From positions 186,001 through 250,000 of the forward strand of contig JANYCU010000045.1 in assembly GCA_025360125.1 (NCBI GenBank): DNA of 64,000 nucleotides, read 5' to 3'. Of the stretch, positions 6,562 through 57,931 are shown in pieces. The DNA comes from Armatimonadota bacterium (GTDB lineage: Bacteria; Armatimonadota; Fimbriimonadia; Fimbriimonadales; Fimbriimonadaceae). Made by a program: the position numbers and the translations under genes. Below the pieces are notes generated by a model that was not told the origin of the DNA, made no database searches, and saw nothing but the letters and a program-made list of their open reading frames with translations. Position 1 is the stretch's first letter, and each line of letters opens with the position of its first letter.

Positions 6562-7188
6562 TTCCCTTCCCCTTTTCACGCCCCAATAACCTTTCGCAAT
6601 TGACACCATGAAAACAGGGCGTTAAAGGGGGAAGGGTTAGGGATGGGGGTTCTTAACTTCCCCAAAAAGTAGGTAAAACGACCTATGCGCGAGCAAGAGC
6701 GAAACTTATCCGAAGGAAACATCAAACGAGTTCGCAAGCTTAGAGCCGAGATGAGCATCTCGGAGCAAGTCTTATGGAAACGAATTCGCGATAAGAAGTT
6801 AGCTTATAAATTTCGTCGCCAACATCCAATAGGAAAATACGTCCTGGACTTTTACTGCCCAACCTTAAAGCTCTGCGTCGAAATTGATGGAGAGCAACAC
6901 CAGTTTAGAGTTGAAGCAGATAACGCAAGGGATTCTTTTTTGATGTCCAAAGGCATCGTTACAATCAGAATTCCAAGCCTGCAGTTGTTTGGTGACGAGG
7001 AAATGAATAGCTTTGCTTGGGCGGAGAAACTGCAAGCAATTTGTGATCTTCGAGCAGTAGAAATTGGGCTGATTCAAGACTAGATTCGCCAAGAATTGAC
7101 CCCCATCCCAACCCTTCCCCCTTTAGTTTCGCAGAAGCGTCGGATCCAAAAATTGACCAATGAGAGCTCACCGAAAAGGGGAAGGGCT
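6562..7188. mobile_element. DUF559 endonuclease cassette with GC-rich inverted flanks
   Basis: The cassette starts near 6562 with CCCTTCCCCTTTTC and ends near 7186 with its complement GAAAAGGGGAAGGG. Just inside are a second inverted pair, GGGTTAGGGATGGGGGT (about 6635-6652) and ACCCCCATCCCAACCC (about 7099-7114). The only gene inside is the DUF559 protein. With the priA-end repeats outside, this looks like a small self-contained mobile unit. The family name and mechanism are inferred. Confidence 0.5.
6685..7083 (+). CDS. DUF559 endonuclease-domain protein
   Basis: The 132-residue product matches the DUF559 family, PD-(D/E)XK-fold proteins related to very-short-patch repair endonucleases. 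Recognisable segments are the helical start (SEQVLWKRIRDKKLAYKFRRQHPIG) and the core strand pair (YVLDFYCP, then LCVEIDGEQHQ), which carries the Asp and Glu of the presumed active site. It ends with a strand reading VTIRIPSLQLF. It sits alone between inverted repeats behind priA. Family members often travel as single-gene cassettes; the physiological substrate is unknown. Confidence 0.8.
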   Translation: MREQERNLSEGNIKRVRKLRAEMSISEQVLWKRIRDKKLAYKFRRQHPIGKYVLDFYCPTLKLCVEIDGEQHQFRVEADNARDSFLMSKGIVTIRIPSLQLFGDEEMNSFAWAEKLQAICDLRAVEIGLIQD

Positions 7189-37388: not shown

Positions 37389-37474
37389 GCGCGGGTGGTG
37401 AAATTGGTAGACACGCTACCTTGAGGTGGTAGTGCTCACAAGGTGTGAAGGTTCGAGTCCTTTCCCGCGCACCA
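37389..37474 (+). tRNA. tRNA-Leu (GAG)
   Basis: The acceptor stem GCGCGGG pairs with CCCGCGC, and the 3' ACCA is encoded. The anticodon stem CTACC/GGTAG closes the loop TTGAGGT, whose anticodon is GAG, reading CUC leucine codons. The long variable arm and T-arm with TTCGAGT fit a class II tRNA. Its 3' end is the attachment site used by the downstream elements. Confidence 0.95.
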
Positions 37475-37570
37475 GACCTAAATTAGGTTCAAATTCCATT
37501 CTCTTCAGTCCCTTTTGGACCTCTTCGTGACTGCATGAAAATGCCAGGTCTCTCAATTGGTCTCTCAATT
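37459..37570. repeat. Attachment repeat, left copy (attL)
   Basis: The last 16 bp of the tRNA (CCTTTCCCGCGCACCA) are followed by about 95 bp of similar flank, ending in two GGTCTCTCAATT-type units. The whole matches 40300-40409 with scattered differences. The stretch to 37643 has no gene. Confidence 0.8.
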
Positions 37571-40299: not shown

Positions 40300-40409
40300 C
40301 CTTTCCCGCGCACCAGGCCTAATTTAGGTTCAAAGCCCACACTTCTCAACTCTCTTTAGATTTCTTCGAGACCGCACGAAAATGCCAGGTCTCTCAATTG
40401 GTCTCTCAG
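40300..40409. repeat. Attachment repeat, right copy
   Basis: It starts with the same 16 bp as the tRNA 3' end and continues AGGCCTAATTTAGGTTCAAA and, further on, AAAATGCCAGGTCTCTC. It marks the boundary between element A and element B. The surrounding gap 40070-40551 contains no convincing gene. Confidence 0.8.
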
Positions 40410-40551
40410 TTCCAATTAAGTTCATCAGGAAAAATAGAATCACCTCTGTTACATTTTTGGGCTCTCTAATGTTAAAGAAATCGAAATCTGTCAAATCCGT
40501 CGAATGGGTTTGGTGCAATCGGCGTCCTTAAGGTTAAGAGGCTAAAAGAAG

Positions 40552-47845: not shown

Positions 47846-48457
47846 TTACAGCCTGTCTAAAAAATCGTCTTGAGCTTTTCGGCTACCTTTGGCTTGCTTG
47901 AGGGTCTCCCGAATGAAATTCTCCAGGTCCGCGGAATAGGGTGCAACGTCCGCGTATTGGACGGCAAGACTTTCCTTCACTTTGGCGAGGTCCCTTTCAA
48001 AAGTCGTCTTGATGTCCTCTGGAGACTGTCCGACCGCCGGATAGCAAAACCTAAGGACCTGCCCGTCTACTTCTGCTCGCGGCGGAGCCGAGCTATACGT
48101 GGAAGGGCGAAATTCGAAAAATACTTCTTCGCCCGAAAATGGAACGGCGTAGACTGCGACTTTGACTGCGGTTTCTGGCGATTCTACGTCGTTAAGAAGT
48201 CCTTGGAATGTTCCTCTCAAGTCGGCGACCCCGTCCTCCAGCGATTTCTGGACGCGATCTTCATGCAACGTGGGTGGTTCAACTTTGAATTCGTGGACGA
48301 GCTTCTTAACAATCTGATCCTCCGACAGGTTTGTAGTGACAGACCCAATATCCAAAGCGGCTGCTTTGAGCCTTTCCTTTTGGTGGCGCAGCATGTCTGG
48401 CAAGTATTGTCCGGCGAAGAGTGTCTTTTGATCCATGGTATTTTGTTCCTCAGTCAA
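47846..48457 (-). CDS. Hypothetical protein, last gene of the sigma/ImmA-helicase operon
   Basis: 203 residues, mixed helix-strand and acidic, starting MTEEQNTMDQKTLFAGQYLP. A central beta section reads AVYAVPFSGEEVFFEF. There is no signal or known motif. It lies 67 bp behind the ImmA-UvrD gene in the same direction, so probably in the same operon. Function unknown. Confidence 0.6.
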   Translation of the reverse strand: MTEEQNTMDQKTLFAGQYLPDMLRHQKERLKAAALDIGSVTTNLSEDQIVKKLVHEFKVEPPTLHEDRVQKSLEDGVADLRGTFQGLLNDVESPETAVKVAVYAVPFSGEEVFFEFRPSTYSSAPPRAEVDGQVLRFCYPAVGQSPEDIKTTFERDLAKVKESLAVQYADVAPYSADLENFIRETLKQAKGSRKAQDDFLDRL

Positions 48458-48524
48458 GCCTTGATTTCTGATCCGTTCGGTTGGCAGCTCCCCCTCAAAT
48501 GAGTCGGAGCATACTTAACTCTGC

Positions 48525-51500
48525 TCATTCGTCGGTTTCCTCGTCTACGTCAGAACTCACGCAAATCAGCGCGAACGGGCAACCTGGGCACGAGAAGGCC
48601 TCCCACTTGGGTGGATACGGTCCTGACTCTGCCTTTGTCGCCAGTTCGACCAGCTGTTTGGGCCTCTTTGCAACCAAGCCAGCGGACGCGGTTGAAAGTT
48701 CCTCGCGATCAAGAAGCGGATATGAAATTCTGACCGAAGATTCTCTGCCGGGAAAAACCGATGAGGCGACGGAACCTAGAAGCGCAGGAAGGAAGGTCTT
48801 CGAGTCCGAACCTAAGTGTGCCTTCGCTGGCCGGTCGTAATGGACGACTCTCAGAACCGCGGGACTTCCGTCCTCGATTTCGTCTGCCGGAATGGAGAAC
48901 GTTCGACCATCGCATACAAGCTCCACGGTCTGGTTAGGCGCGATGCTGGCTCCGCCCGCGAGCTTCCCGTGAAACGCGGTCAGTGCGACAAGTGCTTTTT
49001 CCCTGAACTTGCTCTCGTACCAATGGCCTGCCGGTCCCGTCGCCTCCCAAGCGGCGTCTAGGCAGGCTAAAGCCTCTCCAAGGGAAGGCAGGGAACCTTC
49101 CTTATGGCTCTCGGCCATCGATATCTTGACGTCGGTTATAACCCTGTTGAAATCACGAAAACCCTTGTCTCCGGAAGATAGGTTTAAGATGTAGTAATAC
49201 TCGAACCGCTTTGGACACCTTTGGAACGTCCGGATCATACCGAAGGGAATCGTAGATCCAAATTGGAACCCTTCGGACCTTGCGATGACTGCCTCGGTAA
49301 CTGACAGAGGCAGTGACTGGGCGAAAGTGACGTGCTCCAGGTATCCATTTGCCACGAGCTCGGGCCCTAGATGATCCAAAAGAGGAGAAGGCTTTGCAGC
49401 CTTGCCATACTTGTCCGCAACCGAAATGACGAGCCGGTCCTTAGCTCTTGTTAGGGCGACGTAAAACAGGCACGGCTCTTCGGAATCCTCGTCAGCGGCG
49501 TCGAGCCCCTTGATCAGGCCGTCGGGAATCGGCAGCGAAGTGTGGTGCGACGTGTTCGGAAACTTGCCTTTCGCCAGGAATGGCAAAAGTACTGCCGACC
49601 ACTCCAGGCCCTTGCTTCCGTGAACGGTCGTCACCGTAACGCAATCGGGATCTAGAAGATCGGGGGTAACCGCATCGAGCTTTCCTGACTGGGCGCATGC
49701 CTCCACGAATTCCAGGAACTCGCGTATCTGGAGCCTTCCTTGGGTGTCGGGCGAGGCGGTTCGAAACGACCTGGCCATGGAGCTAACTTGTCGAATGGTC
49801 GTCAGGGCGCGTCTCGCCGACGGCCTTTCGTCGAGCAGCAGTTCTCTCACCAAGGACGAGTACTCAAACAGGTACGTCGCCAACGCATGGAAGACTGTCG
49901 GCTGGACGCCCATGGCACCCACAAGTTGCTTAAGTTTTCGCAGGGTGTTCAGTCCCTCGGTTGAAAGTCCGTGAATATCTCCATCGCATGCGGCATGAAT
50001 GGCGCTTAGGGCCGACGGAACGTGCTCGTCGGTCCATTTCAGGAGGACACCGAGGTCTCGTTTCGCGAGCTTGTATTCTTGGCCACCCGTCACCCGTACG
50101 AGTCCGCGGAGGTCGCCGACTGCCAGATAAAGCATGCCGAACAGGTCCTTGAAGGCCGCCGAACCCAGCAGGTCTCCCGACCAACTCGTCGCTATTCCCT
50201 GCTGCTCAAGTGCGTCCGATGCCTTCTGGGCGTCAGAGCGCGTCCTGCAAAGTACCGCGACGCCATTCGCGCCGAACCTGGCCTTGAATTCCTTTGCGGC
50301 CTCGACCACGGACTTCAGTTCGCTGGGTCCGTCCGGGGCCCTCAGAATTCTGACTCCAGGACCGTCCGGAGAATTGCCCCGATGAGCCACGAGCTTTGCT
50401 GTAGGCAGGTGGCTCACGTCGCCGCGCTGCGGGATCTGTACGGCCTGTCCACACGAAACGATGTCCTGGAACGACCGGTAGTTCGTGTTCAGAGTGATGA
50501 TGTCTGCTCCCGGATAGTCCTTGAGAAATCCTGCGATATTGCTGGGCGAGGCACCCCTAAACCTGTAAATGCTTTGTTTGAGATCTCCAACCGCCCAAAC
50601 CTTGGTATTTGGTCCCGCCAGTGCCCTGACCAACCTGCCGCTGGCAAAATTTATGTCCTGGAACTCGTCGACCAGGATATGGTCGTACTCGGACCTGAGC
50701 AAGTCTCCGGCTGGCGTTTGTTCCAGAAGACGCACGGTCAATGAGATAAGGTCGCCGTAGTCGGCCCTGGTGTTATCTTGGAGCAGCTTCTCGTAGGAGG
50801 CGTAGAAATTCCCTGCGTCGATTGCGCGTCTTCCAGCAAGCTCGGCTTCATCGGATTCGGAATCGCCCAACTGCTTTTCTGCAAGGGCAATATATTCGCG
50901 GGGCGATGCCAATTCGTCCTTGGCCCTTGAAATTGAGTCCAGAAGAAGCCCCAAATTACTGGCGGGGTTCATTAGGTTTTCAAACGACCCAAGCGGCATT
51001 TTTGACAGGTTCTTCTTTAGGAAGGCGATCAGTTCGGCTGGCGTCAGGAGCTTTGGCTCGCCGACATATCCAATATGCTCGCCGTGGATTTTCAGCGTCT
51101 CCAACCCAAACGAATGAAGGGTGAACACCGCAAGCTCGTGGGCATGTTCGGGCATCGCTTTGGACAGGCGTTCCCTCATCTCCGACGCGGCCTTGTTGCT
51201 GAAAGTGAGGGCCAAAATTCTTCGGGCCGGAATTTTTCCTTCCTTTACAAGCCTTTCGAACCGGCGGACCAGTATCCTGGTCTTACCTGCTCCGGGACCG
51301 GCCAAGACGAGGGCCGGACCGAGGGCATTGACGGCCCTGTCGTGATCGTCGTCCTTCGTCAGGACGGGAGTTATGCCGTTTTTCACAACGGCCGGATGGT
51401 CTGGACGCAGGGCCGCAGTGATTTGGTTCATCATGGCCGCCTTGGAAAGCCCGAAGTGGGCGGCCAGGCTTTCTACCGACCAGTCCCGTTGCTGCAACAA

Positions 51501-51962
51501 CCGCTCCCTCACCATGTGTAGAGGGGCCAACAGTTCCCCGGCGAACACGTTGGCCTCAAGCTCGTAGGCTCCTTTCGAGTTGTAGCTCCTGTAAATCCCG
51601 TTCTGAACGGTCAGGGCGTCGAAATCCGGGGACTCGTCGATGTCGAATTCCGTATCCAGAACCTTTTGTTCCGGATGTTCAAGAGCCCTATGGGCAATTT
51701 CATGGGCAACGGTGTAGGCACGCCTTCCTTCATTGAGCCCGGGCCCGTAACTGATAGTGTCGTATTTCAGGTCCAATTGCCCCACAACGCCATCCGGAAG
51801 TTCCGAATCCTCGACGACTCCCAGCTTGAAGCATTGGTCTGCAATCTCGGTCAAGACCTCGATCACCGGTCGCGTGCCTCGCTCAAAAGGATGGCCGGTC
51901 TTGGCCTCGTACTCCGCGATGACGGACTGGGCCCTTGAGCGGATGGCGGAGTAACGGTCCAC
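48525..51962 (-). CDS. ImmA/IrrE protease - UvrD helicase - RecB-type C-terminus fusion
   Basis: A 1,145-residue fusion. Residues 1-160 are an ImmA/IrrE metalloprotease with VAHEIAHRALEH (87-91 HEIAH). Residues about 210-870 are a UvrD/PcrA helicase with Walker A AGPGAGKTR, DHILVDEFQDIN and VHGSKGLEWS, plus FYVALTRAKDRL. The C-terminus has Cys916 in TFQRCPKRF, then CPGC (1125-1128) and Cys1134, the iron-sulfur pattern of AddB/Cas4-type domains. The position expected for D-x-K reads VVHYDRP, so the nuclease may be inactive. Its first gene neighbour is an XRE-like protein overlapping by 1 bp. Confidence 0.88.
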   Translation of the reverse strand: MDRYSAIRSRAQSVIAEYEAKTGHPFERGTRPVIEVLTEIADQCFKLGVVEDSELPDGVVGQLDLKYDTISYGPGLNEGRRAYTVAHEIAHRALEHPEQKVLDTEFDIDESPDFDALTVQNGIYRSYNSKGAYELEANVFAGELLAPLHMVRERLLQQRDWSVESLAAHFGLSKAAMMNQITAALRPDHPAVVKNGITPVLTKDDDHDRAVNALGPALVLAGPGAGKTRILVRRFERLVKEGKIPARRILALTFSNKAASEMRERLSKAMPEHAHELAVFTLHSFGLETLKIHGEHIGYVGEPKLLTPAELIAFLKKNLSKMPLGSFENLMNPASNLGLLLDSISRAKDELASPREYIALAEKQLGDSESDEAELAGRRAIDAGNFYASYEKLLQDNTRADYGDLISLTVRLLEQTPAGDLLRSEYDHILVDEFQDINFASGRLVRALAGPNTKVWAVGDLKQSIYRFRGASPSNIAGFLKDYPGADIITLNTNYRSFQDIVSCGQAVQIPQRGDVSHLPTAKLVAHRGNSPDGPGVRILRAPDGPSELKSVVEAAKEFKARFGANGVAVLCRTRSDAQKASDALEQQGIATSWSGDLLGSAAFKDLFGMLYLAVGDLRGLVRVTGGQEYKLAKRDLGVLLKWTDEHVPSALSAIHAACDGDIHGLSTEGLNTLRKLKQLVGAMGVQPTVFHALATYLFEYSSLVRELLLDERPSARRALTTIRQVSSMARSFRTASPDTQGRLQIREFLEFVEACAQSGKLDAVTPDLLDPDCVTVTTVHGSKGLEWSAVLLPFLAKGKFPNTSHHTSLPIPDGLIKGLDAADEDSEEPCLFYVALTRAKDRLVISVADKYGKAAKPSPLLDHLGPELVANGYLEHVTFAQSLPLSVTEAVIARSEGFQFGSTIPFGMIRTFQRCPKRFEYYYILNLSSGDKGFRDFNRVITDVKISMAESHKEGSLPSLGEALACLDAAWEATGPAGHWYESKFREKALVALTAFHGKLAGGASIAPNQTVELVCDGRTFSIPADEIEDGSPAVLRVVHYDRPAKAHLGSDSKTFLPALLGSVASSVFPGRESSVRISYPLLDREELSTASAGLVAKRPKQLVELATKAESGPYPPKWEAFSCPGCPFALICVSSDVDEETDE

Positions 51963-52540
51963 TAGTCTTGCTCCGACATCCAGTCTTCAATCTGGGATTG
52001 GTTCAATTTGCCCTTGGAGCGTAATTCGGCCAAGACATCGCCAAACGCCCGTTGGGCGTGGGTCACTGGCCTTGGCGTGCCAACTGCACGGTAATGGGAG
52101 GCCATTTCCGGATTTGGCGGTTGCGCAGAAACCAGCGGCCAAATGTTCTCCGTAGATTGCTTCAAGGTGCGCGCCAACCTGACAACTAGCTTTTCCGGAA
52201 TCTCCGTGAGAGTGCGCCGCTGAATCATTAGGATGATCTCGTTGGGAATGTTTACCGACGTTGCGACCACGTTCGGACTCACTCCGATCTCCCTGATTCG
52301 ACCAGTAAGATCGGACGCCTTGGTTCGCGAAACGTCCATTAGCCGACGCACGGATTCCAGCGTCTCGTCGTCGCATCCTTCTGATCCAGACTCGGGGTTG
52401 CTTCCTGAAAACAGCATGGCCTCCCAAAAGATCTGGATCACTTCGTCTTGTTGGTCGGGAAAGTTGACGAGGTATTGGTCCAAAGCCGGAGTCAGACCGG
52501 CTTCGATCTCTGCATATATTTTCTTTTCTATGTTATTCAA
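51962..52540 (-). CDS. XRE-like protein partnered with the ImmA fusion
   Basis: 192 residues. The middle (ISPNVVATSVNIPNEIILMIQRR, then LTEIPEKLVVRLARTL) fits a helix-turn-helix of the XRE type. A helical N-terminus and an acidic C-terminus (NQSQIEDWMSEQD) surround it. ImmA/IrrE proteases normally cleave such an XRE-family repressor encoded next door. The same relationship is inferred here. Confidence 0.65.
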   Translation of the reverse strand: MNNIEKKIYAEIEAGLTPALDQYLVNFPDQQDEVIQIFWEAMLFSGSNPESGSEGCDDETLESVRRLMDVSRTKASDLTGRIREIGVSPNVVATSVNIPNEIILMIQRRTLTEIPEKLVVRLARTLKQSTENIWPLVSAQPPNPEMASHYRAVGTPRPVTHAQRAFGDVLAELRSKGKLNQSQIEDWMSEQD

Positions 52541-52581
52541 AACTTCCTCAGATGTATAAATTCTGTGAGGCTAATCGGGAT

Positions 52582-53310
52582 TCACTGGTTCAAGTCTGTT
52601 CGAACCCGCTCAAGCCCGTCAAGGTGGCGATTGCGAATTGTTCTTTCCGTAACGTGTTGTTCGGCTGCTATCTCCGCGTAGCTGGCTCCTTGGAAAAAAC
52701 GTACCGCTACGAGCCTTAGGTCTTCTGGAAGACGATTCACCGCGTCCCATACATGACCTTCGGCCATCGAGTCCTCAAAGCTTGAGTCACAGAGTACGGC
52801 CGACTTCTTTGTACTCTTTTTCGCTGATCTGGGATCGGAGACTTCCTGGCTCCCATTGACGGGAGTTAGGCTAACGAGTTGGTCTTCTCCCGGGGCATGC
52901 TTGCCAATGAGGGCATTTTCCCTTTGGCAGTCGCGTATCGCATTGCGGCACCGCTTGAAAAAGCAGGCACTAAAGCAGTCCTCAAAGTTCGCGAACGCGG
53001 GACTAATATTGCATACGCAGGCCCGAAGCACGCCCACCATCTTTATTACTGCGTCCTCAAAGTATAGGTGGTCTTTTGATCCTAGCGCAGAAAGGGCATA
53101 TCTCGCGACCTTAGTTTCGAGGCGTTCCTCCAACTTTCCGAGCAAATCCAAGGCGGTATCCCGCTCCCGTCCCGCTTCCGCCGTCTTGCCCGCCAGTTCG
53201 AAAGCTTCGCCACGACGGAGCCTGTCGCGAATGCGTCCCACGATCTCGCCCAGTACTTGGGACTCCGTCAATTGCCTGTCTTCTGCCGTCTTTATAGATT
53301 CATCTTCCAT
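52582..53310 (-). CDS. Sigma-70 family RNA polymerase sigma factor
   Basis: 242 residues from the ATG at 53310, behind a GAGGGG ribosome site. A region 2-like section (FANFEDCFSACFFKRCRNAIRDCQRE) and a clear region 4 (VNRLPEDLRLVAVRFFQGAS, YAEIAAEQHVTERTIRNRHL) are separated by a variable linker. The N-terminal 90 residues are an unusual extension. It leads the operon with the XRE-like and ImmA-UvrD genes and may direct transcription of this island. Confidence 0.8.
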   Translation of the reverse strand: MEDESIKTAEDRQLTESQVLGEIVGRIRDRLRRGEAFELAGKTAEAGRERDTALDLLGKLEERLETKVARYALSALGSKDHLYFEDAVIKMVGVLRACVCNISPAFANFEDCFSACFFKRCRNAIRDCQRENALIGKHAPGEDQLVSLTPVNGSQEVSDPRSAKKSTKKSAVLCDSSFEDSMAEGHVWDAVNRLPEDLRLVAVRFFQGASYAEIAAEQHVTERTIRNRHLDGLERVRTDLNQ

Positions 53311-53517
53311 CACCACCCCTCTTCAATTTTGCTAGCAACATAGCTTCCATATATTCCATCACCACTTTATAGACGGATCGGAAAAGATTCTCGGTGAATT
53401 TTTTATCGAGAGGAATTTTCACGAAGGGTTTCCAAATCGAAGGTGGTCCGGTGATGGAACTAATACAAGTGCGGCGATCGCTGTTCAACGAATCCGGCAC
53501 CCATATTGGTAACTCAA
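53311..53517. promoter_or_regulatory. Divergent promoter region between sigma and ubiquitin-like operons
   Basis: About 200 AT-rich bases serve both operons. I can see no clear -35/-10 pair or perfect palindrome beyond a lone GCGATCGC octamer near 53474. A sigma-factor-dependent promoter for the right-hand operon is plausible but unproven. Confidence 0.35.
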
Positions 53518-53811
53518 ATGCAGAACGACGAAACTCAGAACCCAACTCATGACGTTGCCGGCCAAAAGCCTGTCGACCCTTATGAAATCGTAATTCTCGT
53601 AAACCGCCACAAGGTGGTTTTTAAGACCGAAACGTCCACCGGATACACGGTGAAGCTTGCGGCAATTGCGCAGGGCGTACCCAACGTCCAGGCGGACTTC
53701 GATCTCTTTAAGGTTGAAGGAGACAAGCAAACGCTGATTGAAAACCAGGAACCCCTTCACCTCCATAGTAAGGATGTCTTCCTTATGCTTACCCCGGATC
53801 ACAGCTCATAA
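53518..53811 (+). CDS. Ubiquitin-like protein (Ubl)
   Basis: 97 residues from the ATG at 53518. After a disordered 20-residue start comes a single beta-grasp domain: YEIVILVNRHKVVFK (strands 1-2), YTVKLAAIAQGVP (helix), DFDLFKVEGDKQTL (strands 3-4) and HSKDVFLMLT (last strand). This fits the bacterial multiubiquitin/DUF2604-type Ubl. The C-terminus ends PDHSS, without the usual Gly-Gly. It is the first gene of a four-gene operon and overlaps the E2 start by 1 bp. It is the presumed modifier. Confidence 0.8.
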   Translation: MQNDETQNPTHDVAGQKPVDPYEIVILVNRHKVVFKTETSTGYTVKLAAIAQGVPNVQADFDLFKVEGDKQTLIENQEPLHLHSKDVFLMLTPDHSS

Positions 53812-54194
53812 TGACGGATGAAATTAAGGCGGCCGTAGAAGAATTGAAGGCCGCCTTTCCGGGTCACGGTGTTTCGACGGAGGACGGGCCGAATGGTGGG
53901 GCATTCGTAAAAGTCTCCGATCTGGACTTCGGGCCGACCCTCATTCCGAAGGAGAATTGGATCGGGTTCACGATACCCGCAGGCTATCCCTTTGCGGACG
54001 TTTATCCCCACTTCACGCCATTGGGCCTTAGGCGGGTGGACGGCCGAGAACTTGGGGAAGGTCTTACCGGGCAGGTTCCGTGGAACGATATCACCTGCAA
54101 TCAGATTTCGAGGAGGACCAACGGATGGAACCCTTCCGTTGACACGGCCGCTACGAAACTTGTGAAGGTTCTTCAATGGCTGAGGACACGATGA
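53811..54194 (+). CDS. E2-like conjugating protein (prokaryotic UBC type E)
   Basis: 127 residues. The order of a hydrophobic N-terminal helix, a beta-meander with GFTIPAGYPFADVYPHF, then NDITCNQISRR with a conserved Cys (Cys96) and a Trp-containing tail (GWNPSVDTAATKLVKVLQWL) fits the bacterial E2-E family of ubiquitin-conjugating folds. Cys96 is the candidate thioester carrier. It overlaps the Ubl gene by 1 bp and the E1 gene by 4 bp. Confidence 0.8.
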   Translation: MTDEIKAAVEELKAAFPGHGVSTEDGPNGGAFVKVSDLDFGPTLIPKENWIGFTIPAGYPFADVYPHFTPLGLRRVDGRELGEGLTGQVPWNDITCNQISRRTNGWNPSVDTAATKLVKVLQWLRTR

Positions 54195-55693
54195 CAGACT
54201 CATTACAACTACGAATTACTAACGCAGACTTTGCAGTGCTGAACGAACATCTCTTGCGTGATGACCATGACGAGCATGCTGCTCTCGTTCTATGCGGCAT
54301 TGTGCGAACCGATCACCAGACCCGTTTGTTGGTCCGGCAGGTCGTCCTCGCCGAAGACGGAACGGACTTCGTGCACAGCCAGCATGGGTACAAAGAACTG
54401 ACGAGCCGATTCATTGCTAAGTGGGCGTCATATTGCGCCAAGGAAAACCTAATCTATCTGGCAGCACACAATCACTTCGGTAAAGACACCGTCGAGTTCT
54501 CTCCCAATGACCTTGAATCTCACGAGAGGTGCTATCCTGCCCTAATAGACATTACCGGGCATCCAGTCGGCGCCCTTGTGTTCGCCAAGAATGCCGTTGC
54601 CGGAGATATCTGGTTCCAAAAGTCGCGAGAGGTGCTAGATTCGATGGTGGTCATCGGTCCCAGGATGCGAGCCCTTCGCCCTGGACCTCGGACATGTGGC
54701 CCGGACGTATCCGAACTTTATGATCGTCATGTTCGGCTCTTCGGAGAGGAAGGTCAGCGAATCCTGCAGGGCCTCAAGGTAACTATAATGGGCGCCGGTG
54801 GCGGCGGTTCGCTCACGAATCAATGGTCAGCTCACCTTGGAGTAGGACATCTAGTAGTTATAGACCCAGATACTATCGACAAAACGAACCGTCCGAGAAT
54901 AGTTGGGTCAGAGCCAAGGGATATTCGGAAGAAGACGCATAAGGTCAGGATTGCCGAGCGAGTTGCCAAGACCGCTCAGCCTGGAATTAGATTCGAAGGC
55001 ATCGTGGGTGATGAGCGCTATATTGATGTCGTCCGAAAAGTCATCGATTCAGACGTAATCATTCTTGCTGGAGATAGCTATCGAAGCCGTTTGCTCTTCA
55101 ATGCAATCGTCCACCAATATATGATTCCTGGGTTTCACGTGGGCGTTCATATTCTGCCAGACACTCTAACTGGACAGGTTGCCGAAATAAAGGTTGAGTC
55201 AAGATGTGTCCTTCCGGCCTTTGGAGGAGGCTGCTTGCTCTGCAATAATTTCATTCCAGCTGAGAAACTACGTCTGGAGGGATTGTCCGTGAGCGAACGA
55301 CGCGCCCAAGCATACGGAGACCAGCAGTTCGCAGAGGCGGCTCCCGAGCCAAGCGTAATTACCCTAAATGTCCTATCGGCGGCACATGTTGTTAATGACA
55401 TCATGATGATGTTTACAGGACTATTTCGAGACGAAGTGGAGCTTGAGTCTTTACGTTACATAGCATTAGATCGACGTCTGTTTCGCGTAAGTCACATCTC
55501 GAAGCATGATTGTCTTCATTGTGGAAGTGGAGATCGCAGCGCTAAGGGACGAGGTGACACAAAGTCGTTGCCAATGCAAATCAATCGGCCGGATACCGAC
55601 AACTCAGTCAAATGGATCAAGACTCGTGTCGTGCTACTATACGGCTTCATTGCTAGGTTGTGGAATACTGCCGGATCAAAAACCGCTCAATAA
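54191..55693 (+). CDS. JAB isopeptidase - ThiF/E1 fusion
   Basis: 500 residues. The N-terminal JAB/JAMM metalloprotease has Glu28 and H93-x-H95 then S104-x-x-D107 (AAHNHFGKDTVEFSPND), one residue longer than the canonical spacing. From about 190 a ThiF/E1 adenylation domain follows: GAGGGGS (201-207), VVIDPDTID, TNRPR, and two CxxC pairs (348/351 and 441/444) typical of the structural zinc of ThiF/MoeB. The product should both activate and remove or mature the Ubl. Start ATG 54191 overlaps the E2 stop. Confidence 0.9.
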   Translation: MTDSLQLRITNADFAVLNEHLLRDDHDEHAALVLCGIVRTDHQTRLLVRQVVLAEDGTDFVHSQHGYKELTSRFIAKWASYCAKENLIYLAAHNHFGKDTVEFSPNDLESHERCYPALIDITGHPVGALVFAKNAVAGDIWFQKSREVLDSMVVIGPRMRALRPGPRTCGPDVSELYDRHVRLFGEEGQRILQGLKVTIMGAGGGGSLTNQWSAHLGVGHLVVIDPDTIDKTNRPRIVGSEPRDIRKKTHKVRIAERVAKTAQPGIRFEGIVGDERYIDVVRKVIDSDVIILAGDSYRSRLLFNAIVHQYMIPGFHVGVHILPDTLTGQVAEIKVESRCVLPAFGGGCLLCNNFIPAEKLRLEGLSVSERRAQAYGDQQFAEAAPEPSVITLNVLSAAHVVNDIMMMFTGLFRDEVELESLRYIALDRRLFRVSHISKHDCLHCGSGDRSAKGRGDTKSLPMQINRPDTDNSVKWIKTRVVLLYGFIARLWNTAGSKTAQ

Positions 55694-55739: not shown

Positions 55740-56036
55740 ATGAGCAGCAACTACCTATATTCGTCGAGGGGGCAGGCGGTGGGATACGTGAGGGGACGCT
55801 TTATTTACACGATGCGCGGAAAGGCGGTTGGTCAAATAAGCGGAACTCACGTTCACAAGCTTTCGGGACCGTATGTCGGTGAGCTTGACCATGACATGGT
55901 CGTTGACAAGCATATGGGCAACTATGGCAACATTGGAAACCCAAGTAACCCAGGCAATGCCGGATCACCTGGCAACCCAGGGAGTCGAGGATCTCAGAAC
56001 TACGGCTACAAGGATGTTTTCGACAAACTCTTGTAA
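55740..56036 (+). CDS. Beta-flower-like small protein with Gly-rich tail
   Basis: 98 residues. Four similar units of about 16 residues (YLYSSRGQAVGYVRG, RFIYTMRGKAVGQISG, THVHKLSGPYVGEL, then DMVVDKHMGNYGNI) give the pattern of the four-fold beta-flower family. A tail of GNP/GSP-type triplets (GNPSNPGNAGSPGNPGSRG) ends in YKDVFDKLL. A GGAGA ribosome site precedes the ATG. It is the fourth gene of the Ubl operon. Its role is unknown; it may be a target or a structural part. Confidence 0.7.
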   Translation: MSSNYLYSSRGQAVGYVRGRFIYTMRGKAVGQISGTHVHKLSGPYVGELDHDMVVDKHMGNYGNIGNPSNPGNAGSPGNPGSRGSQNYGYKDVFDKLL

Positions 56037-56150: not shown

Positions 56151-57776
56151 TCACTCTGTTGAAAGCCGAAACTCTTCCCATGCAGCCAGCCAAATAGGAT
56201 GACCAACCCCAAAAGGTTGGTCTTTCTTGCTTTCAGAGCGACTTTTTTGACTTTCGAAATTGAGTTCTTCTAAAGGCATCTTTTCGGATACTTTCGAGGA
56301 ATTCGTCAGGGCAACTGCTTTGGCAAGCTGTCGGTACGCAGGTCGGTATTCCGGCATGACTGCATCGTTGCTGACTCGAATCGAGGCAAAGACCGTATGC
56401 AGAACGGCACGCCGATCTGAACCCTCGGACTTCAAATATAATTGACCGGCATTTCGTCCGATCGAATAGACTTCTGCTTTTGACTTAAAGTGCTCGGATA
56501 GGTCATTTTCAACCGTTTCTCGGGCTTCCTGAGTTCGAGCCAGCTCGGTTAAGCTCTCTAACCGTTTCCGATCGTAGTCCTCGCGGCTCAGATCGCCTTC
56601 AATGCGAAGTTCAAGAAGCCGTTCTAGCCTCTTACCTAGTGACTTGAGTTTGGCCTCAAGTTCTTCTCGTCGGGATTCTTGGAGTGCCATAACGTCTCGA
56701 CTTTGACTTGTTAAGGCTCGGTATATCCAGTCGGCCAATCGCGTATTATTCACTTCTAAAACTTGGAGGTAAGGCAGTAGATCACTTTCTGTGCATTCTT
56801 GTTTCCTCGAGGTACGACACGAACATGCCTGATACTGCTTGCAGTAACCGTACACGAAATTGCCATGACCTTCCCAGCTCATGAGCTTCCCACACGAGTC
56901 GCAAAGCACAATGCCCTTGAGGGGATAGTCGTGTTTGCGATAGCGTCTCGCACCCTCACCCCCACCTTTTCGCTTCATGCGAATTTGAACGTTCTTAAAT
57001 ACTTCCTGTTTAATGATTGGCACATGTGCTCCTGGCCAGACCTTTCCCCGGAACTTCATCTGGCCGACATAGAATGGATCCTGCAGCAGCATGTGAATCC
57101 TGCTCGCCATTACCTTATGACGATTGGCGTTTCGGAGGCCCAGTTCTTCCATCTTATTCGCGAGGCGCGGAATTGAATATTCACCTGAATTATAGAGTTC
57201 AAACATCATCTCGATGAATGGTACGGTAACCCTATCCACCTGTAAGGGTGAAGTCGGGTGGGTTCTGTCCCGGAAATACCCTAATGGCGCTTTCGTTGGC
57301 CATATGCCGCGCTTTAGCATCACGTCCGCAGCCTTCAATACTTCCTCGCTCAAGTTGTCGCTAGAATGTTTTGCTACCGCTAAGTGCATATTCCATACGA
57401 ACTTCGTCGTCGATGCGGCGTATTTGTGGATGTCGAGCGACTGCTTCACTAAATGAACATGCCGGTTCGCGTCATGCTCAAGCCACTCATCGATGAGAAC
57501 CGCATCGCGACTTCCAGACCTGGAGACTCTATCGACCTTTTCCGCTACGATGTGGCAAATGCCTGTCCGCTGAACCTCCTTCACAAATTCCTGAAATTTT
57601 TTGCGCTGCTCGTATTTCGAAGCAGTCTCCGAAAAGGACCAGACGAAGGCAACTCCGATACTTTTTCGTTCGCAATGCTCTCGGAGGAGCTTTTCTTGCG
57701 CTTCAAGGCTATATCCTTCTTCCTGGTCTTTGGTGCTGACTCGGCAGAGCAGCGCAGCAGTTTGGTGTTTGTTCAT
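56151..57776 (-). CDS. Large serine recombinase
   Basis: 541 residues from the ATG at 57776. The resolvase domain starts AALLCRVSTKDQEEGYSLEAQ (Ser nucleophile in CRVST) and has VDRVSRSGSRDAVLIDEWL. The recombinase domain has GYFRDRTHPTSPLQVDRV, then a zinc-ribbon region (VLCDSCGKLMSWEGHG to CSCRTSRKQECTE) and a coiled coil. It catalyses integration and excision between short att sites. It ends 115 bp from the Ubl operon and may have delivered it. Confidence 0.92.
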   Translation of the reverse strand: MNKHQTAALLCRVSTKDQEEGYSLEAQEKLLREHCERKSIGVAFVWSFSETASKYEQRKKFQEFVKEVQRTGICHIVAEKVDRVSRSGSRDAVLIDEWLEHDANRHVHLVKQSLDIHKYAASTTKFVWNMHLAVAKHSSDNLSEEVLKAADVMLKRGIWPTKAPLGYFRDRTHPTSPLQVDRVTVPFIEMMFELYNSGEYSIPRLANKMEELGLRNANRHKVMASRIHMLLQDPFYVGQMKFRGKVWPGAHVPIIKQEVFKNVQIRMKRKGGGEGARRYRKHDYPLKGIVLCDSCGKLMSWEGHGNFVYGYCKQYQACSCRTSRKQECTESDLLPYLQVLEVNNTRLADWIYRALTSQSRDVMALQESRREELEAKLKSLGKRLERLLELRIEGDLSREDYDRKRLESLTELARTQEARETVENDLSEHFKSKAEVYSIGRNAGQLYLKSEGSDRRAVLHTVFASIRVSNDAVMPEYRPAYRQLAKAVALTNSSKVSEKMPLEELNFESQKSRSESKKDQPFGVGHPIWLAAWEEFRLSTE

Positions 57777-57931
57777 GAACGATTGATTAGCCAATGAAAA
57801 AGAAGGACAGCCCTGTGCTTTCCCAAATCGCACACCCTTCGATGTACTTTCTGGACAGGACTGCCCTTCTAAGGCAGAAAGGATATGAAGAAGGGATTGC
57901 GTCTACGATTCGGGAAAGCACTTGCATGATA

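Follow-up and report, generated by a model that had tools for sequence, protein, structure and literature searches.

How a bacterial ubiquitin-like (Ubl) conjugation operon is switched on is the question raised by the locus described here. Such operons are thought to be immune systems, and their activation is known for few controllers. In a 64,000-nucleotide stretch from an Armatimonadota bacterium (assembly GCA_025360125.1, contig JANYCU010000045.1, positions 186,001 to 250,000; hereafter the window), a Ubl operon faces leftward genes for a sigma factor, an XRE-like protein, and an M78 protease fused to a UvrD helicase. A preliminary description, made from the DNA letters alone, had read these genes and a fourth one as a self-contained switch, triggered by damage or phage, that might turn on the Ubl operon. 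We consider it probable that the sigma factor, the XRE-like protein, and the M78-UvrD fusion form a mobile three-protein switch that would control the facing Ubl conjugation operon through DNA-gated cleavage of the XRE-like protein. Comparison of sequences brings out the module and its conservation, promoter-like elements shared with the Ubl operon, and a co-dependence between the protease and the XRE-like gene.

The four leftward open reading frames (ORFs) of the preliminary description are all present on the minus strand and tightly packed, with a gap of 41 nt, a 1-nt overlap, and a gap of 67 nt between them, and the sigma ORF lies 189 bp from the facing Ubl ORF (start 53506), close to the roughly 200 bp first given. 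The features of the locus, with their basis, are:

52582..53316, minus strand: ECF-type (extracytoplasmic function) sigma factor gene, 244-aa ORF with a probable ATG at 53310 (Pfam, profile, model)
51962..52540, minus strand: XRE-fold protein gene, 192 aa (family profile and model)
48525..51962, minus strand: gene for the fusion of M78, UvrD, and a degenerate iron-sulfur (Fe-S) nuclease domain, 1145 aa (Pfam, profiles, alignment)
47846..48457, minus strand: gene for a PDC-S54-like N-terminal half, 203 aa, probably outside the module (PADLOC)
53354..53384, minus strand: putative sigma-specific promoter of the regulator operon, TTTCCG-N17-TGATGGAA (pattern search)
53429..53459, plus strand: putative sigma-specific promoter of the Ubl operon, TTTCCA-N17-TGATGGAA (pattern search)
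53506..53811, plus strand: ubiquitin-like gene (ubl) of the cargo operon, likely ATG at 53518, homologous to ubl of loci L006 and L042
53811..54194, plus strand: E2-like gene of the cargo operon (Prok-E2_E sub-threshold, E 0.005; family hidden Markov model, 4e-55)
54176..55693, plus strand: JAB-E1 fusion gene of the cargo operon (N-terminal JAMM-like motif HNH..SPND; ThiF, 1.4e-22)

Judged by its sequence, the cargo is a Bub operon, with Ubl, E2, E1, and JAB in one transcription unit and an E2 match that lies below the Pfam cut-off.

The sigma factor and the XRE-like protein of the preliminary description could both be assigned more closely. As a single sequence, the window sigma protein matches Pfam in region 4 alone (Sigma70_r4_2, 1.4e-6), and across its family such searches detect Sigma70_r4_2 in 24 of 28 members and Sigma70_r2 in two. 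The profile of the 28 members aligns to ECF structures over regions 2 and 4 (RpoE 1or7, 2e-15; AlgU 6in7, 1e-15; also SigL), and the protein has regions 2 and 4 without region 3, which makes it an ECF sigma factor. Structures were predicted for sequences from the window, a metagenome-assembled genome (MAG), a viral contig, and Armatimonadota. The AlphaFold2 model of the window sigma factor (mean predicted local distance difference test score, pLDDT, 82) has a helical N-terminal domain, a disordered linker, and a region-4 helix-turn-helix (HTH), with ECF sigma factors among its best structural matches. The XRE-like protein of the window has no match in Pfam; the profile of its family matches XRE proteins (3kxa, 5e-5). 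Its model (pLDDT 82, HTH core above 90) consists of N-terminal helices, a central HTH at residues 78–138, and a conserved C-terminal tail. The HTH superposes on those of SinR, CapH, and DdrO, over 53 residues at 1.2–1.3 Å for SinR and 1.4 Å for CapH, as a predicted five-helix XRE domain of the Cro/cI type. Wherever an XRE-like gene had readable flanks, a sigma gene preceded it, and the pairing persists even where the protease gene sits elsewhere; it therefore fits a sigma/inhibitor pair.

We searched for the module in other genomes (loci and contigs bear L numbers, genomes G numbers). Of the phylum's 291 genomes, 28 encode full-length relatives of M78-UvrD above the E-value cut, two of them (L167 and L169) without the M78 domain, and further full-length copies came from one MAG contig, one E. 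coli chromosome, and over 80 plasmid records; phage records held no full-length M78-UvrD. An identical 1217-aa protein occurs in G003 and in the Abditibacteriaceae contig L005. The sigma and XRE-like genes precede M78-UvrD in most copies, usually with overlapping start and stop codons, and this three-gene order recurs in dozens of genomes and is therefore not due to chance. The module stands beside Ubl operons in Proteobacteria, Cyanobacteria, Abditibacteriota, an unclassified MAG, and E. coli, the plasmid copies being proteobacterial and cyanobacterial. Outside Armatimonadota, every plasmid copy that is intact and whose downstream side is unbroken adjoins a Ubl operon. The neighbouring operons are of three subtypes: Ubl/E2/JAB-E1 (window, L006, L042), multiubiquitin/ThiF/DUF6527 (most loci, and L176 with its own form of E1), and a Ubl/E2/E1 set (L043, L177, L185, L186, and, within Armatimonadota, L161), the Ubl of which we take to be DUF2604-like. 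The two operons are divergent in the window, L042, and L176, and co-directional in the rest. In several rhizobial plasmids (L044, L181, L190), a gene pair for a PD-(D/E)XK nuclease and UvrD lies downstream of the Ubl operon.

Do the two operons share regulation? Each of the 14 plasmid or E. coli loci of one type has the element TTACCG-N17-CGATYR 76–81 bp ahead of ubl, with a second copy inside the sigma gene, at its 3' end and about 213 bp short of the XRE-like gene; six plasmids of 2.1 Mb in total contain it at these two sites and in one extra match. In the copy within the gene, which is translated, the bases at third codon positions stay constant although the encoded residues differ, and the joint chance of the codon choices given the residues is about 4e-10 over six lineages, by a simple codon-usage estimate on loci recognised by the motif itself. 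Other lineages carry other elements. Those of the L043 type have the variant TTTCCG-N17-CGAT[TC]A upstream of sigma and of ubl, whereas L176 has its own pair TGGCAA-N17-GCATGG and L161 its own pair CACATA-N16-AGTGGA, each upstream of both operons. In L043, L185, L186, L176, and L161, the sigma-upstream and ubl-upstream hexamers are identical at 12 of 12 positions, which 0–2 of 100 shuffles reach, and in L006 a longer gapped element is common to both transcripts (0 of 500 shuffles). In the window, sigma is faced by TTTCCG-N17-TGATGGAA and ubl by TTTCCA-N17-TGATGGAA; a search pattern formulated post hoc, TTTCCRN17TGATGGAA, matches twice in 4,132,817 bases, both times at these sites, with none for the reversed-pattern control. 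The strength of the window pair would lie in this longer pattern, unique in its genome.

Ubl operons related to those of the plasmids serve as a comparison. Four with other regulators or none have 4–5 mismatches to the plasmid motif at the same place, compared with 0–2 in 17 module loci, and those without TTACCG-N17-CGATYR include operons under CapW or CapH/CapP. In a Rhizobium beringeri plasmid (L249), where two multiubiquitin operons surround one module, there are three copies of the element: in sigma, before the first ubl, and before the divergent second ubl. In stand-alone Armatimonadota modules, TT[TAC]CC[GA]-N16-18-[CT]GAT had no match around sigma. The shared elements have the 6-17-6 geometry of sigma70-type promoters with hexamers other than TTGACA and TATAAT, and their two hexamers, 16–18 bp apart before both regulator and target, would suit a sigma-dependent promoter. 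From these sequences, we conclude that transcription of the module and of the Ubl operon usually starts from the same promoter, one specific to the module. The module's own sigma factor might recognise it, because the geometry is that of a promoter and the hexamers change with the lineage of the module. The suggestion that a module with a dedicated sigma factor regulates the Ubl operon is thereby well supported. Three other sequence matches were set aside. GGTGATGGAA was rejected as a genome-wide regulon motif, since 16 matches in 4.13 Mb make it unspecific on its own; a third intergenic copy of GGTGATGGAA, at 53305–53314, overlaps the sigma start codon, has no upstream TTTCC, and was not counted as a promoter; and comparing upstream regions for a single shared stretch of 32 or 12 nt was uninformative at most loci, so that the paired 6-17-6 search was required.

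These elements bear on the idea that the two operons are mere neighbours in a defence island without shared regulation. Modules without Ubl are common in Armatimonadota and Ubl operons occur with other regulators, also in PMC13373217, as such hitchhiking would predict. It would not account for the intact plasmid copies with an unbroken downstream side, which adjoin Ubl operons of various subtypes and gene orders, for the lineage-specific elements common to both operons, or for the duplicated Ubl operon having its own copy, and we regard it as very improbable. Independent occurrence of the two operons without shared regulation was what the preliminary description named as the finding that would contradict it. 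Module and Ubl operon do occur apart, yet adjacent copies usually share promoters, so that their separate occurrence indicates modularity rather than absent shared regulation.

Related Ubl operons have other controllers at the same place. At L213, whose E1 is 51% identical to that of the window, the genes facing the Ubl operon are those for a CapH-like XRE protein and an M78 protein of 195 aa; at L222 and L225, they are an XRE+M78 pair and an XRE-M78 fusion; and plasmid Ubl operons have XRE+ImmA/IrrE (L246, L248) or a WYL, CapW-like regulator (L247). There is therefore a regulator slot, of which the module is one occupant, and the CapH/CapP-type pairs at this position in relatives lend further support to the regulatory role first guessed. 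In PMC13373217, 219 of 544 Bub operons are reported with CapW or CapH+CapP and 59 with CapK+CapS, and CapP is described as being activated by single-stranded DNA and cleaving CapH.

The module might accordingly be thought to follow the logic of CapH/CapP, with the XRE-like protein as a repressor at the ubl and regulator promoters that M78-UvrD cuts, the sigma-like protein as no more than an auxiliary activator, and the shared elements as XRE operators. The fold superposes on the HTHs of CapH and DdrO, XRE+M78 pairs take the same place in relatives, and palindromes are present in the divergent intergenic regions of the window (53326–53341), L176, and L042. However, the elements are asymmetric hexamer pairs with a fixed 17-nt spacing, as in sigma promoters but unlike dimer operators, the palindromes vary between loci without conservation, and sigma and XRE remain paired where the protease gene lies elsewhere. 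We consider this explanation unlikely. At L176, a 20-bp palindrome, TTTAGAGTAAACACTCTAAA, lies between the two divergent promoter-like elements (intergenic region 6663–6811) and is a candidate operator for the XRE-like protein.

What could the fusion protein do? The earlier reading as an ImmA/IrrE-UvrD-RecB-like fusion holds for its first two parts, which Pfam confirms (Peptidase_M78, 3e-9; UvrD, 4e-60), and in part for the tail. The M78 domain (residues ~1–190) has HEIAH and, for the downstream Glu ligand, ELEAN, and its profile matches both IrrE (3dte) and CapP (7t5t). The UvrD region (~209–870) has intact Walker motifs. The AddB/Cas4-like Fe-S nuclease domain (~900–1136) keeps the four Fe-S cysteines and has lost the (D/E)xK motif, and therefore does not qualify as an AddB/Cas4-type nuclease. 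In all M78-fused members this motif is replaced, by VHYDRP, VHTGQP, or VATGHM, whereas the two M78-less relatives, L167 and L169, retain VIDYKTGKP.

The protease motif HExxH is intact in 16 of 16 aligned Ubl-linked copies and lost in L005/L147 (HAIGH), L156 and L159 (HHFAH), and L160 (HAEAH). In the three genomes in which a dead protease is the only copy, no XRE-family gene was found anywhere at E<=0.01. Of the 23 genomes with an intact protease, 21 have an XRE gene, versus none of three with a dead one (Fisher p 0.004, or 0.02 with two congeneric genomes counted once), and four genomes whose intact protease has no adjacent partner contain the sigma-XRE pair on another contig. Inactivation of the protease coincides with loss of the XRE gene from the whole genome, and the XRE-like protein is therefore, on this genomic evidence, the likely substrate of M78-UvrD. 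The same pattern argues against M78-UvrD as an antiphage effector, nucleolytic or helicase, that is co-regulated with Ubl rather than acting as a sensor. UvrD-type helicases are effectors in Gabija, PADLOC gives GajB-like matches for the fusion, and the Walker motifs are intact, all of which such an effector would explain; but the XRE gene tends to be present where the protease is intact and missing where it is dead, and the nuclease motif is lost precisely in the M78-fused members. There seems little chance that this account is correct.

The mechanism that we prefer, the three-protein switch, would work as follows. In the resting cell, the XRE-like protein might hold the ECF sigma factor off, either as an anti-sigma factor or by blocking promoters; the UvrD part with the nuclease-dead Fe-S domain would engage damaged or phage DNA, as single strands or ends, and thereby activate the attached M78 protease, which would cut the XRE-like protein. 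The freed sigma factor could then guide RNA polymerase to a pair of nearly identical promoters (in the window, TTTCCR-N17-TGATGG), one serving the regulators as feedback and the other ubl-E2-JAB/E1. By analogy with IrrE/DdrO and CapH/CapP, we infer both that DNA damage or phage is the trigger and that cleavage takes place, and the DNA-sensing step is proposed because of the CapP and IrrE precedents together with the helicase fusion. The XRE-like protein is the probable protease substrate and inhibitor of sigma or of its promoters, and an anti-sigma role is slightly favoured over DNA binding because the sigma-XRE pairing is constant and the elements are asymmetric. Taken furthest, the locus might represent a cytoplasmic, damage-gated ECF pathway in which an XRE-fold anti-sigma factor is destroyed by a helicase-coupled protease and the sigma factor's private promoter travels with the Ubl cargo, a tentative proposal to which we give somewhat less than an even chance. 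If it is true, sensor, protease, anti-sigma factor, sigma factor, and promoter move as one cassette, which would also serve as a chromosomal stress switch in Armatimonadota.

Several observations weigh against the switch as proposed. Most module copies in Armatimonadota stand alone without a Ubl operon, and the module consequently has targets other than the Ubl operon. G039 and G042, both draft genomes, have an intact HExxH and no detectable XRE gene. The pattern that is unique in the window's genome was read off its own two sites, and as a 12-position match the window pair is modest, at 11 of 12, a score reached by 6 of 100 controls. L042, divergent and of the same arrangement, lacks a shared element. 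Finally, we infer recognition by the module's sigma factor, and the assignment of -10 and -35 hexamers, from the geometry of the elements.

Among known systems, CapH+CapP is like the module in that an M78 protease and an XRE-fold partner adjoin immune or Ubl operons (CBASS, Bub, and others), the module's M78 profile matches CapP 7t5t, its HTH superposes on CapH 7t5u, and such pairs take the same position in relatives. The module differs in that its protease is part of one polypeptide with UvrD and a nuclease-dead Fe-S domain, and in the addition of an ECF sigma factor with its own promoters, whereas CapH+CapP consists of an XRE protein and a stand-alone M78 protease with no sigma factor. The module would work like CapH+CapP, yet is not a member. 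IrrE(PprI)/DdrO of Deinococcus and ImmA/ImmR of ICEBs1 also combine an M78 protease with an XRE partner, the module's profile matching IrrE 3dte, and have neither helicase fusion nor sigma factor; DdrO and ImmR are plain repressors. RpoE-RseA and SigW-RsiW resemble the module in the translational adjacency of an ECF sigma factor to its partner, in a dedicated protease, and in promoters before regulator and target, although the partner in the module has an XRE fold with no apparent membrane anchor, and a helicase-fused M78 zincin of the cytoplasm serves as the protease. Bub operons with CapW or CapK+CapS share with the module locus the Bub-type operon as controlled cargo. A sigma/M78-UvrD controller does not appear in the accessible part of PMC13373217, and Iyer 2006 mentions neither a sigma factor nor UvrD. 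The searchable literature gave no description of such a controller, its coverage excluding key papers on Bub and CapH/CapP and Chambers 2024, which leaves the absence unproven.

The shared promoter before the Ubl operon suggests a DNA-damage trigger for that operon. A controller that brings its own sigma factor and promoter makes its targets readable from DNA sequence, and a DNA-tracking motor coupled directly to a protease might be a testable new way of damage sensing. The module also accounts for M78-UvrD proteins, encoded on plasmids of Acinetobacter, Klebsiella, Rhizobium, and others, that carry a helicase annotation and no more.

The fourth leftward gene was rejected as a member. Its 203-aa product matches PADLOC PDC-S54 (E 1.4e-28) over profile positions 1–196 of 410, the N-terminal half alone, and falls short of the full length of about 410 aa; no homologue was found in the 290 other genomes of the phylum, and no PDC-S54-like gene stands beside the other module copies examined. 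The unit is therefore one of three genes, and the four-gene system first described does not hold; the survey for co-occurrence that had been proposed with it finds the three-gene unit recurring beside Ubl operons, not the fourth gene. Two plasmids, one from Paludisphaera and one from Thauera (L243, L244), encode full-length homologues of about 410 aa.

Stand-alone modules (L145–L172) occur in many Armatimonadota, one family of which (L163–L165, L170) has conserved chromosomal neighbours, and are possibly a native chromosomal stress switch. Past the Ubl operon of the window and on the same strand lies a gene for a beta-flower protein (PF21784) with a collagen-like tail (55740–56036), followed by a large serine recombinase of 560 aa (56151–57833; Resolvase and Recombinase domains, CcrB/XisF-like matches), and the island may therefore be mobile. 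Elsewhere in the window, a segment at 37459–37570, made up of the 3' end of tRNA-Leu (37389–37474) and its flank, recurs 2.8 kb downstream at 40300–40411 with 82% identity, and near this repeat a second pair of 271 nt (38313 and 41216) has 73% identity; both pairs are possibly att-like remnants of an integrated element.

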